From IMG/VR virus record IMGVR_UViG_3300029787_000017, positions 1 to 60,861 of that record: 60,861 nt of DNA; one strand, written 5' to 3'. The position numbers were made by a program, and so were the translations under genes. Below the pieces are notes generated by a model that saw nothing but the letters and a program-made list of their open reading frames with translations, was not told where the DNA came from and made no database searches. The DNA is from a virus. Positions 6,264 to 11,271 of the stretch are shown piece by piece. Numbering within the stretch: the stretch's first letter is position 1; each line of letters opens with the position of its first letter.

Positions 6264-6512
6264 TTACCACTTTTCTATGGGACATTCTTCTGTAAACCAC
6301 TTAGTTTTAAGAGGTGTATAGCACCCACACAGCTTACATTGGTCGGCCTCAAAGTGAGGACACCTGTTACATATATCGAGACGGGCTTTAGCTAGGTCGG
6401 ACACCCTAAATCCTGACCTGGCCCAGTGGTATAGTGATTTGAAGAACTGCTTCACTTGGCTTGGTCTTAAATACCTTAAGACGTAGTACAAATTAATTAT
6501 TTTTTGTTTCAT
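6264..6512 (-). CDS. Small cysteine-rich putative zinc-binding protein
   Basis: An 82-residue protein with a basic helical N-terminal half (YYVLRYLRPSQVKQFFKSLY) and a C-terminal half with six cysteines: CNRCPHF, CKLCGCYTPLK and ECP. The CxxC...CxxCGC...CP pattern is common in small phage proteins of unknown role and should bind zinc. It overlaps the polymerase gene by 4 bp (6509-6512, ATGA), so it is coupled to replication genes. Function unknown. Confidence 0.75.
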   Translation of the reverse strand: MKQKIINLYYVLRYLRPSQVKQFFKSLYHWARSGFRVSDLAKARLDICNRCPHFEADQCKLCGCYTPLKTKWFTEECPIEKW

Positions 6513-7621
6513 TGGAAGTACTTATTTATTTCAGTAATGTTATCTACCTTTCCATCCTTAAATCTAACAGGAATTGCATCTCCGAAAGACTTACCTACCT
6601 CAGCGTCAATAACCAAAGGCACATCAAAGTGTATATTAAAAAGAGATTTAATGGATGGGTAGTTTACCATCTCATTATAGACAATCTCTAGTGCCTCAGA
6701 TACACAATCTAAATCACAAACTATCTCCACACTATCGTGAACGGTAGCGACGGGACGAGCTTGAATACTATTATCCTTAAAAGACTTAGCAATACCAAGA
6801 AGAGAAGAGAGCAGGATATCAGACGCAGTGCTTTGGATAGTAAAGTTGAGGCCCTGTCTGAGAGCGCGATTAACCACTGTTCTATCACGAGAGGTAACAT
6901 CAGGCAGATTCCTGCGCCTACCAAATATTGTATAAGCATAACCATTGCGTTTAATATATTCATTTACGAACTCCATGTACTCAAAAATGCCAGGGTACAC
7001 TTTCTTGTAGTTATCAATAATCTTCTCAGCCCTCTTCATGGGGATAGCCATGGTCTCTGCTAGATTAAAAGCCCCTCCACCATACACGATCAGGAACGAA
7101 ACTGTTTTGGCAATCTGTCTCTCTTCCTTTGTGATGTCTTTCTTATTAAAGAGAAGCTCTGCCGTGTAAGTATGTAGATCCGCTCCTTGATTGAAGGCTA
7201 GTTGCATATTGCCTTCCTTGGCTATATGAGACAGCACTCTAAGCTCCATGGCTGCGTAATCAACAGTAATGAAGGCTTGACCCTTCTCCGCTGTAAAGAT
7301 GCTCCTGATGTTAGTTTCTGTGTCTCTGGGTAGAGTGTGGAAAGACACTCCCATAGCTTTCTTTGCATTGTAAGCCGCGCAAGACAATCGACCCGTTGTA
7401 GTGCCATCAAACCTGAAGTCTACATACACCTTGTCTCTTTCATTATATGCAATCGCTTTCTTAGTCCCTTGGATATAAGTCTTCGCTAACTTCTCAGATT
7501 TACGAAGATCTAATAGACCTTTTAAGAACTTTTTAGATTCTTGAAGCTGTTCCGTAGTCTTAGAGGAGATAACAGACTTGCTAACCTTCTTCCCCTCATC
7601 CCTGTGCTGCCACTTACTCAC
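6509..7621 (-). CDS. DNA polymerase family A, palm/fingers fragment of a split enzyme
   Basis: A 370-residue polymerase part. It starts inside the thumb (KLAKTYIQG) and carries GTTTGRLS, motif A DYAAMELRVLSHIA (catalytic Asp121), motif B RQIAKTVSFLIVYGG (Arg168, Lys172, Phe176, Tyr180) and motif C VHDSVE (His295, Asp296). All catalytic residues are present, so the fragment should be active if it joins the other parts. Phe176 lines up with E. coli Pol I Phe762, a position used to sort marine phage polymerases by lifestyle. The start is a GTG at 7621 that overlaps the stop of the upstream fragment (GTGAGTAA). The proofreading domain is missing and lies on two other genes. Confidence 0.93.
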   Translation of the reverse strand: MSKWQHRDEGKKVSKSVISSKTTEQLQESKKFLKGLLDLRKSEKLAKTYIQGTKKAIAYNERDKVYVDFRFDGTTTGRLSCAAYNAKKAMGVSFHTLPRDTETNIRSIFTAEKGQAFITVDYAAMELRVLSHIAKEGNMQLAFNQGADLHTYTAELLFNKKDITKEERQIAKTVSFLIVYGGGAFNLAETMAIPMKRAEKIIDNYKKVYPGIFEYMEFVNEYIKRNGYAYTIFGRRRNLPDVTSRDRTVVNRALRQGLNFTIQSTASDILLSSLLGIAKSFKDNSIQARPVATVHDSVEIVCDLDCVSEALEIVYNEMVNYPSIKSLFNIHFDVPLVIDAEVGKSFGDAIPVRFKDGKVDNITEINKYFQ

Positions 7622-8093
7622 GCTTCTTCAACTCCCCTTCAATATGCTCAAGCAATAGCTTAAGTGTAGGTGCAGATACTGAAGGCTTTCCGCTTGCTGT
7701 CTTATCGGGAGGATACAACTCCATCCCCCCCTCACGAGTGTACAATATCTCGATCAAGTGGTTGTTAGATGAGAGGTTATCTGTCTTGTGTACAGAATTG
7801 CAACTATAGAGACCGTCCTCCTCGTCCATGTTCTTAGAACTTAACGTCTTGCCTACCTTCTCTAGAGTGTTAGTGTCTACATTTAAGCCCTCGTACTCCA
7901 TCTCTGCGAACACCTCAAGTGAGGGCATGATAACCTTTTCAATCAACCTCATCATCGGACTCCCTTCAAGTTTTTCGCAAATCAAATCAAACAACTTGAG
8001 GGTGAAATAAGTATCCATAGCATTCCCTTCCACGCAATCGGAAAGAGATATACTGGACCAATCAAAAGTGTTAGGATTGTTTATAGTAAGCAT
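7614..8093 (-). CDS. DNA polymerase family A, Exo III/thumb fragment of a split enzyme
   Basis: A 159-residue middle piece of the polymerase. GNAMDTYFTLKLF (Asp27) matches the Exo III motif of the 3'-5' proofreading domain, and LIEKVIMPSLEVFAEMEYEG matches the segment that leads into the Pol I thumb (MEYEGLNVD). The end (KTASGKPSVSAPTLKLLLEH) is the conserved stretch just before the palm, so the break to the downstream fragment falls within the thumb. Upstream it directly continues the sequence of the UDG-exonuclease gene at 8580-9602, from which an opposite-strand gene separates it. It has no known activity alone. Confidence 0.88.
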   Translation of the reverse strand: MLTINNPNTFDWSSISLSDCVEGNAMDTYFTLKLFDLICEKLEGSPMMRLIEKVIMPSLEVFAEMEYEGLNVDTNTLEKVGKTLSSKNMDEEDGLYSCNSVHKTDNLSSNNHLIEILYTREGGMELYPPDKTASGKPSVSAPTLKLLLEHIEGELKKRE

Positions 8094-8100
8094 TACTATA

Positions 8101-8108
8101 TATTATAG
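8101..8108. promoter_or_regulatory. TATTATAG box between divergent genes
   Basis: The 23-bp gap between the divergent lipoprotein and polymerase-fragment genes contains TATTATAG (8101-8108), which reads CTATAATA on the other strand. On the + strand GAGGT follows and could serve as ribosome-binding site for the lipoprotein gene. On the - strand the box ends 7 bp before the ATG at 8093. Similar boxes occur in the other divergent gaps, so I take it as a candidate late promoter element. Confidence 0.45.
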
Positions 8109-8116
8109 AGGTCATC

Positions 8117-8617
8117 ATGCGAAATTTAATAATCATACTTATGTTAGTTACTCTGTCTAGTTGCAGCACCATCAAACACGCTGTAGGAGGAGCCTTAGGT
8201 GGAGGCTTAACAGCAGCCTTCCTCCCTGAGCCAGCAGCGGTCGCAGCAGGAGCAGCAGGTGGAGTCATGGTCACAGAGCTTATCCTGCCTTCAGCAAGCC
8301 CAGCAGCCCTTGTAGGGCAAGTGGCAGGAGCAGGTCCAGTACAAGGAACTACTGCTTCTACCTTACATGAAACAGGTGGGCTAATTAAGACTTTAGGTTA
8401 TTGGTGGTTAATCCTCTTTGTGTTCCTTCCACTCTTCAGAAAGAATGGACGTAACTGGTTTAAAAAGTTCGGACAGATTCATAACACCGTATCCCAAGCA
8501 GACATTGATGCAAGGGATGATGAACAGGATGTAATTATGAAGCATAATGAGAGTAGGATTGCTGCTTTAGAGCAAATGATTACAGACTCTCAAGCTCTGT
8601 CGGAAAATAAAGCTTAA
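8117..8617 (+). CDS. Putative lipoprotein with second membrane span, inserted in the polymerase locus
   Basis: A 166-residue protein. MRNLIIILMLVTLSSC is a signal sequence with lipobox LSSC, so lipid attachment at Cys16 is expected. A glycine/alanine-rich stretch (about 24-56) follows, then a membrane span TLGYWWLILFVFLPLF (about 92-107), then a basic patch (RKNGRNWFKKF) and an acidic, helical C-terminal tail. The positive residues after the span suggest that the tail lies in the cytoplasm. Lipid anchor plus span resembles a one-piece spanin of a lysis system, but that is only inference. It points opposite to its surroundings, has GAGGT before its ATG, and overlaps the UDG-exonuclease gene by 38 bp at the 3' end. 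Confidence 0.72.
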   Translation: MRNLIIILMLVTLSSCSTIKHAVGGALGGGLTAAFLPEPAAVAAGAAGGVMVTELILPSASPAALVGQVAGAGPVQGTTASTLHETGGLIKTLGYWWLILFVFLPLFRKNGRNWFKKFGQIHNTVSQADIDARDDEQDVIMKHNESRIAALEQMITDSQALSENKA

Positions 8618-9602
8618 CCAAATCCATCAAACTCTTAGGGCTGTTCTCATCTAGAAGGTGATGCATAATCTTAGTATCCCACACATTCTTAGTGTAGATA
8701 CCATGATTAATTAAGAACTTCAGATCGAACTTAGCGTTATGGAATACTTTCTTGTTAAGTGGATTCTCTAAAACTCTACGAAGATTAGCCCACATACTTG
8801 CGTACTCAGGCTCACCCTTCCTAAAGGGAGAATCTTTGTGGTCACAGGGTATGACCCAATTGGTGTCCTTAGATGATAAGGCTATCGTTTGAATCTTATC
8901 TTGCAGAAAATTAAGCCCCGTAGTTTCAATGTCTACTGCTAGAGTCTCCTCGCTGTCCCTCAACTTCTCTGCAAGATCTTTTACTTCCTCTATTGTTGTA
9001 AGGAGTTCGTATTCCAGCTTGCCTTCGTGGGTCTTCTCTAACACATACTTCTCATACGCATTTCTAATGTCAGTCTGGAATAAGAACTTGTGTCGAGGTT
9101 CCTTGGCTACGAAGAACGGGTGAAAAATAGGGACTACTACACAGCTATGCCCATTATCGGTGGTGTATGTGAAGGACTTCCCTCTTTTATCACTAATACC
9201 ACTCTTCTTAATTAACATCTTCATTGCCAGGTTTCCACAAGGTAAAATAAGCTTCGGCTTTATCTTATCCACTGTAGCCTGTAAATGCACCCTGCATAAA
9301 TTCATGTTGTCAGGAGACATGTCTGCCTCTTTGACGGAGGGACACTTAACTGAAGCTGCACACGCGAAGGACTCCTTATACGCTTCTCTAATAACTGCGT
9401 ACTCTGGCTTGGTGAATGGGAAAGTCTTCCCGTATGAGGACTTGAGTGAGTCTGACAAGAATAGAACATCAGACTGTCCAAGCTTCTCATAATCCATAAC
9501 AGAATAGCAAGGCTTATTCTTCTCTAGAATGGTACAGCCATCACACAGAGGATTCTCTGCGGTTATTTTATGGTCAGAGTAGATACTACCTAAATCAAAC
9601 AT
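8580..9602 (-). CDS. UDG-like domain fused to 3'-5' exonuclease (Exo I/II), N-terminal part of the split polymerase
   Basis: A 340-residue protein with two domains. Residues 1-185 look like a family 4/5-type uracil-DNA glycosylase: four candidate cluster cysteines (Cys20, Cys23, Cys87, Cys103), PKLILPCGNLAMKML and the IFHPF motif. Residues 195-340 are the N-terminal half of a DnaQ-like proofreading domain: Exo I DIETTG (Asp224, Glu226) and Exo II FHNAKFD (Asp293). The domain stops at LYFPTELESL, and the missing Exo III motif is encoded at 7614-8093. N-terminal UDG-like domains on family A polymerases are known in other phages (SPO1, from memory). The ATG at 9602 touches a TATTATAG box. Confidence 0.85.
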   Translation of the reverse strand: MFDLGSIYSDHKITAENPLCDGCTILEKNKPCYSVMDYEKLGQSDVLFLSDSLKSSYGKTFPFTKPEYAVIREAYKESFACAASVKCPSVKEADMSPDNMNLCRVHLQATVDKIKPKLILPCGNLAMKMLIKKSGISDKRGKSFTYTTDNGHSCVVVPIFHPFFVAKEPRHKFLFQTDIRNAYEKYVLEKTHEGKLEYELLTTIEEVKDLAEKLRDSEETLAVDIETTGLNFLQDKIQTIALSSKDTNWVIPCDHKDSPFRKGEPEYASMWANLRRVLENPLNKKVFHNAKFDLKFLINHGIYTKNVWDTKIMHHLLDENSPKSLMDLVKLYFPTELESL

Positions 9603-9615: not shown

Positions 9616-9960
9616 ATGAAGAAGAAAAATTATATTGACAACAAAGAGTTCGAAGCACTCATCTTAGCTTATAAGGACAACCCTGAAGAGAATGAGGAAG
9701 AGTTAGTGAAGATGTTCGACCTTTTGATTACAAATATAATCGGATCATTCAACTTCAAAATAGATCCTGATGATGCTAAACAAGATTGCTTTGCGCTCAT
9801 ACTAAAGATCATAAAAAACTTCGCTCCTAGGAAAGGCACAGCCTTTAATTACTTCACTACAATCATAGTGAACAACCTCAAGTTGTTATACACTAAAGAG
9901 AAGAAGTACAAGCTAAAGATTGAAAATTTTATAGAAATACAATCTAAGAAGCTTGAGTAA
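9616..9960 (+). CDS. 55: gp55-like late sigma factor
   Basis: A 114-residue protein resembling the T4-type late sigma factor gp55, a minimal sigma70 relative that directs host RNA polymerase to TATA-box late promoters. Visible marks are NKEFEALILAYKDN near the start, IDPDDAKQDCFALILKII (sigma region 2-like core helix) and GTAFNYFTTIIVNNLKLLY, the DNA-melting/recognition segment that is most conserved among T4-like cyanophages. It is shorter than T4 gp55 (185). It points right, alone, with a CTATAATAG box just before its ATG, and overlaps the gene at 9944-10276 by 17 bp. It probably works with a gp33-type co-activator and a sliding clamp encoded elsewhere. Confidence 0.78.
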   Translation: MKKKNYIDNKEFEALILAYKDNPEENEEELVKMFDLLITNIIGSFNFKIDPDDAKQDCFALILKIIKNFAPRKGTAFNYFTTIIVNNLKLLYTKEKKYKLKIENFIEIQSKKLE

Positions 9961-10740: not shown

Positions 10741-11271
10741 ATGGAAGACAATTACGATATTTCTAAACTGAAGAAAAAAAAGCGTGTGAACAGCCGAGCT
10801 AAGGGCAGCACATTCGAACGCAAGATTAGCCAGACACTCAATGATAGGCTGAACACCACAGAATTTTCGAGAAGTCCTGGATCAGGTGCGTTCGCCACAA
10901 CCCATACTCTTCCTGAACACCTTAAAATTTATGGGGATTTAATCACACCAGAGAACTTTAAATACTGTATAGAATGCAAGAAAGGATATAATAAAGAAAA
11001 CTTATATAGCTTATATAATTATAGCAGTGATTTCTGGGGTTTTCTGGAACAATGTGAAAAAGATTCAAGCAAATGTGATAGAATTCCAATGGTTATCTTT
11101 AAACAAGATAGACAACCTACACTAGCCATCATCCCTAGCTATGTACAAACAAATAAGTTACAACAGTACATAGAAATCTACAAAGAAAACCCTCCATTTA
11201 CTAAAATAGTATACAGAATATATAAGTTTGAAGATTTACTAGATGATATTGATTCTTTCTGGGTTAACTAA
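10741..11271 (+). CDS. PD-(D/E)XK endonuclease, Holliday-junction-resolvase-like
   Basis: A 176-residue nuclease. The acidic and lysine residues of the PD-(D/E)XK core can be placed as Glu26 (KGSTFERKI), Asp66 (YGDLITP) and Glu78-x-Lys80 (CIECKK). The SRSPGSGAFATTH segment before the Asp is typical of Hjc/RecU-like resolvases. It probably cuts recombination junctions or packaged branched DNA, the job of gp49 in T4. It is a lone rightward gene; its last 8 bp overlap the end of the gene at 11264-13771. An alternative is a repair or restriction-type nuclease of the same fold. Confidence 0.75.
   Translation: MEDNYDISKLKKKKRVNSRAKGSTFERKISQTLNDRLNTTEFSRSPGSGAFATTHTLPEHLKIYGDLITPENFKYCIECKKGYNKENLYSLYNYSSDFWGFLEQCEKDSSKCDRIPMVIFKQDRQPTLAIIPSYVQTNKLQQYIEIYKENPPFTKIVYRIYKFEDLLDDIDSFWVN

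Follow-up and report, generated by a model that had tools for sequence, protein, structure and literature searches.

A family A DNA polymerase encoded by three genes, with a slot for gene exchange at the break in its exonuclease domain, in a clade of marine phages

We analysed a window of 60,861 nt (the whole stretch of DNA considered here) within the 77,263-base IMG/VR record IMGVR_UViG_3300029787_000017 and found three minus-strand genes, here called U, T and P, which judging from their sequences are jointly one family A DNA polymerase. This three-gene arrangement is old and conserved across a large clade of marine phages, and we consider it likely that the family A replicative polymerase of this clade is a three-chain enzyme whose break between U and T is ancestral and later became a slot for gene exchange. 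The three genes would be translated separately and their products would assemble non-covalently into the fold that is made by a single chain elsewhere, with a composite exonuclease site that would be completed only once U meets T and that may be active in proofreading with a glycine substituting for the Exo III tyrosine.

The polymerase locus

Gene U (8580..9602, minus strand; 340 aa) combines a UDG-like domain (about residues 1-195) with the first part of a 3'-5' exonuclease that includes Exo I (D224, E226) and Exo II (D293). It matches PF03167 (E 9e-6) and PF01612 (E 4e-22), the latter spanning residues 198-336 and ending ahead of Exo III. Gene T (7614..8093, minus strand; 159 aa) comprises an Exo III segment (G23-x3-D27, with the tyrosine lost) and part of the thumb; a Pfam search of this fragment gave zero matches, and its profile aligns with the E. 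coli Pol I Klenow fragment from ahead of Exo III into the thumb (chain 161-292, E 8e-6). Gene P (6509..7621, minus strand; 370 aa) carries the remaining thumb, the fingers and the palm, with matches to Pol I structures in the PDB (E 3e-55) and to PF00476 (E 4e-77, 260 bits), the latter being the single occurrence of this family in the 77,263-base record. Its motifs A (D121), B (R168...K172...Y180) and C (H295-D296) are kept and invariant in the alignment. All three proteins match consecutive stretches of phrog_17 (DNA polymerase, length 1445), with U at 543-785 (E 3e-41), T at 797-929 (E 1e-6) and P at 927-1243. Since the exonuclease is variable within family A, the membership in this polymerase family that is indicated by motifs A, B and C of palm and fingers stands despite the loss of the Exo III tyrosine.

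Klenow alignments place the break between U and T (U|T) after the Exo II segment and before the Exo III segment, at approximately Klenow residues 459-484, and the break between T and P (T|P) in the thumb, where the clade has extra residues compared to Klenow and to the unsplit polymerase of Caudoviricetes ctfzr933. At the latter break, the T stop and the GTG start of P overlap by 8 bp (7614..7621, minus strand) in the +1 frame, the most frequent size among 143 overlapping T|P junctions, and a Shine-Dalgarno-like AAGGGGAG lies inside T (7632..7639, minus strand), 10 nt ahead of the P start; its equivalent is GAGGAG in most relatives. AlphaFold gave a good model of U (pLDDT 87.5), with structural matches to family 4 UDGs and to Pol I/apPol-type exonucleases; the single-chain model of T is helical and of modest confidence (pTM 0.45), with Pol I as its best, weak structural matches (probability 0.99, E 0.027). 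The initial annotation had described a polymerase in three genes at this locus, and its outline is borne out by the confirmed reading frames and their consecutive phrog_17 matches: Exo I and Exo II at the end of U and Exo III at the opening of T agree with the extent of PF01612 and the Klenow alignment, palm and fingers in P with the PF00476 match, and a second break in the thumb again with the Klenow alignments.

As a separate observation, motif B of P (residues 175-181; window ~7079-7099, minus strand) reads SFLIVYG compared to NFGLLYG in both unsplit outgroups, with a Leu replacing the Gly that follows the Phe.

Conservation among relatives

Relatives were collected by IMG/VR scans with the polymerase pieces, amounting to several hundred loci, and each distinct junction sequence was counted once. 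None of the 143 distinct U|T junctions is fused: stop and start share 1 nt in 90 (TAATG in 84, TGATG in 3 and TAGTG in 3), an insert separates U from T in 50, and three are of other types. At T|P, 145 of 146 distinct junctions have two genes (143 overlapping and two with a gap); in the single fused case, locus L200, T and P share one frame, which shows that T-P fusion is tolerated but could alternatively be an indel. Whether relatives have one, two or three genes at this locus, a point raised in the initial annotation, is answered by these junctions, which show separate genes and no single-frame polymerase. The arrangement persists in relatives with a U only ~40% identical to that of the window, and the sole relative from the genome_contigs set, a 130,604-base contig of a single-cell Prochlorococcus assembly, has the same two breaks and gives the sole hint of a host. 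No unsplit close relative was found in the polymerase-based scans of viral contigs and genome contigs, and the nearest unsplit relatives share about 25-34% identity. In every pair with estimable dS, each of U, T and P has a dN/dS of 0.01-0.11 (T 0.01-0.10 in close pairs), pointing to strong purifying selection on all three and arguing against any of them being a relic. In one relative (L020, 7590-8005), the frame of T changes near residue 88, which is either an indel error or a further split.

The insert slot between U and T

The slot at the U|T break measures 486 bp in the window (8094..8579) and is absent or 151 to 2403 bp long in relatives. Here it contains a plus-strand gene (8117..8617) for a predicted lipoprotein of 166 aa with the lipobox LSSC and a hydrophobic segment, for which we obtained zero Pfam matches and a PHROG match at chance level. 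The initial annotation had reported a convergent gene in this gap; a rightward open reading frame is indeed present, but it is convergent with U only (the 3' ends overlap by 38 bp, 8580-8617) and divergent from T, with 23 bp between the start codons. Similarly, the opposite-strand gene is there as described but is not what defines the break, given that 90 of 143 junctions are insert-free.

Slot genes in relatives belong to the lipoprotein family or to a MNDYELIGESIWDTYRNM-like family, or encode a 91-aa membrane protein, a 62-aa predicted coiled-coil-like protein, a GT2 glycosyltransferase, a 2OG-Fe(II) oxygenase-like protein or, once (L377), an HNH_3 protein. Both breaks are occupied in one locus, L389, where the U|T insert is a 2OG-Fe(II) oxygenase-like gene and the T|P insert a DUF6445 gene. 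The MNDYELIGESIWDTYRNM-like proteins of L011 (6515-7504), L014, L016, L021, L022 and L034 have a common N-terminus followed by unrelated low-complexity tails; the one member tested has no Pfam match, and the shared N-terminus might be a virion-targeting leader.

On the tree of the clade, inserts are lacking from the basal lineages, and no fewer than 17 insert gains or losses are required; the exact number is soft, since the tree came from a quick search and its outgroup branches are long. The insert-free base implies that the lipoprotein gene entered a pre-existing break and rules out a recent break made by this gene. DNA of the 91-aa cassette is 84-92% identical between distant lineages with polymerase pieces that are 51-72% identical, and the lipoprotein cassette shows the same trend relative to the flanking polymerase, though weaker. 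Cassette identity that exceeds polymerase identity and the many slot changes on the tree show repeated movement of cassettes into one slot.

It is plausible that the original break came about by insertion of a homing endonuclease. A full scenario of this kind, in which a free-standing homing endonuclease split the gene and was later lost to leave TAATG before other genes reused the slot, is one that we regard as possible but would not favor. It is supported by the HNH_3 protein of L377 (E 5e-10), which sits in exactly the U|T slot, by the movement of slot cassettes between lineages and by the precedent of Aeh1 nrdA, which was split by homing endonucleases (PMC2988022). Yet this HNH protein is the only one among 50 inserts, with none in the window, the base of the tree is insert-free, and the polymerase gene may already have been split when the HNH gene arrived, as has been discussed for phage 25 (PMC2988022). 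Elsewhere in IMG/VR, no relatives of the L377 HNH protein were found.

The exonuclease site and the UDG-like domain

Residues D224, E226 and D293 of U are invariant (31 rows, mean column identity 60%), as is D27 of T (mean column identity 53%), and N289 of Exo II is nearly so; invariance of the exonuclease carboxylates across two genes would be expected if both meet in one active site. U and T together thus supply every acid of a DEDDy 3'-5' exonuclease of Pol I type, but the Exo III tyrosine (Y-x3-D) is replaced by Gly in 37 of 37 aligned rows, whereas both unsplit outgroups have Tyr. The initial annotation had considered all catalytic residues intact, which holds for the acidic residues and fails for this clade-wide substitution, and with the tyrosine missing throughout, proofreading could be weak or lost.

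The UDG-like domain at the N-terminus of U (9018..9602, minus strand) had been overlooked by the initial annotation. Its invariant Cys 20, 23, 87 and 103 follow the spacing of the Fe-S cysteines in family 4 UDGs, and we take them to be Fe-S ligands. The top fold matches of the U model are 4zby/4zbx (E about 1e-8), in line with a family 4 UDG fold, but the GExPG of motif A is not kept and LFLSDSLK is found there instead (ctfzr933 has GEAPG). By fold and motif content, we describe the domain as UDG-like and do not class it as an active UDG.

Both the lost tyrosine and the missing GExPG would also fit a dead exonuclease, with P and T forming a non-proofreading polymerase and U kept as a DNA-binding UDG-like factor. 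We consider this unlikely because the four metal-binding acids are invariant over two genes, with Exo II N289 nearly so, and because dN/dS of U and T equals that of P or is only slightly above it. Short of a full complex, U and T could also act apart from P.

Expression of the three pieces

At insert-free junctions, T starts at the U stop, and a Shine-Dalgarno-like sequence (strict pattern) is found in the 3' end of U in 47 of 90 cases; ahead of T, such a sequence is seen in none of 31 opposite-strand inserts. In the window, a near-palindromic, AT-rich and apparently promoter-like core, CTATATATTATAG (8096..8108), lies between the start codons of T and the divergent lipoprotein gene, and its minus strand reads TATAATATATAG, ending 2 nt ahead of the T ATG. 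A TATATAG-like box ending 2 nt before the T ATG occurs in all 31 opposite-strand inserts and in none of the 19 same-strand inserts, where the class of each of the 50 inserts is the strand of its T-proximal gene; in L377, the HNH gene overlaps T and runs past its start. From its sequence and position, this box may be a promoter that would put the transcript start near the T ATG, so that T may come from a short-leader or leaderless transcript. Same-strand cassettes mostly retain stop/start coupling to T, and opposite-strand cassettes supply a promoter-like element directly before it. Similar AT-rich near-palindromic cores are also found at the divergent pairs 9602/9616, 10709/10741 and 57825/57862 and are possibly bidirectional promoters of this phage.

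A more far-reaching version of the three-chain reading, to which we would give close to an even chance, is an obligate three-subunit family A replicase with a shared exonuclease site, in which proofreading would be regulated or reassorted by subunit supply and the break would permanently offer a docking site to mobile cassettes, which trade the translational coupling of T for a promoter of their own.

That a single polypeptide is still produced through programmed frameshifting or through splicing, either of the insert or of the protein, seems very improbable to us. The pieces do adjoin with few or no residues missing, and an open overlap of frames is present, though short, but inserts of 151-2403 bp, many of them on the opposite strand, block read-through, insert-free junctions, too, have U and T in different frames, and the pieces have ribosome-binding-like sites of their own. 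Programmed frameshift, intron and intein are ruled out by these frames and opposite-strand inserts together with the lack of any match to Rfam introns in the window or four relatives and of intein-like extra residues at the piece ends. Finally, the window is a metagenomic contig, but the chance of an assembly or sequencing artefact, the case that the initial annotation had named as a refutation, is negligible, and misassembly is ruled out because the same two breaks recur in independent contigs from many metagenomes and on the 130.6-kb single-cell Prochlorococcus contig.

Comparison with known systems

Phage polymerases in two pieces are already known for families A and B. Aeromonas phages 25 and 44RR, as here, encode their replicative polymerase in separate genes (PolB, 43A/43B) with an endonuclease gene or an untranslated spacer at the break (PMC2988022), and the two halves from phage 25 purify together and show activity (PMC2988022). 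Those enzymes are family B polymerases in two pieces in few phages, whereas here we see a family A polymerase in three pieces across a clade and a slot that holds mostly non-endonuclease genes. The NrdA of Aeh1 is a different enzyme but likewise essential and split at an HNH-holding slot; its chains reassemble and it is fully active despite the mobE insertion (PMC2988022), though the content of its slot is the endonuclease itself. OM43 phages MEP401 and MEP402 resemble our clade in being marine and in having a family A polymerase in two ORFs with a small gene in between, a layout shared by most of their group and for which the authors suggested an intron (PMC10580990). Unlike here, there are only two pieces, the break falls inside PF00476, and the exonuclease domain is whole in one ORF. 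Lysinibacillus phage LysYB1 (891 aa) and Caudoviricetes ctfzr933 (804 aa) have single-chain UDG-Exo-Pol proteins with the same domain order, alignable over all three pieces, but each is one gene and has the Exo III tyrosine. Cyanophage S-TIM5, included as a comparator, has one annotated DNA polymerase gene of 2685 bp. In the full texts that we searched, mainly of papers free of subscription, we found no report of a three-piece polymerase or of one broken between Exo II and Exo III.

If our interpretation is true, this family A replicase would naturally consist of several chains, broken inside an active site and maintained that way across a diverse marine clade, allowing direct tests of subunit assembly, proofreading control and tolerance to gene fission. 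The slot also shows that unrelated genes can enter time and again where an essential gene is broken. Given that the T fragment has no Pfam match, surveys based on polA can count, misname or lose split polymerases.

Genomic neighbourhood

Next to U, a plus-strand gene at 9616-9960 encodes a small protein weakly similar to a phage late sigma factor (phrog_234, E 9e-5), and its position adjoining U is conserved in most relatives. Further on, the plus-strand gene at 10741-11271 encodes a PDDEXK_15 endonuclease (E 6e-26) that is also matched by the RusA-like resolvase family. On the other side of the locus, a DUF6171 protein is encoded on the minus strand (6264-6512) between P and an SbcD-like gene. 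It is found in part of the relatives only, and with the distance from P to the SbcD-like gene being variable, this may be another insertion site.
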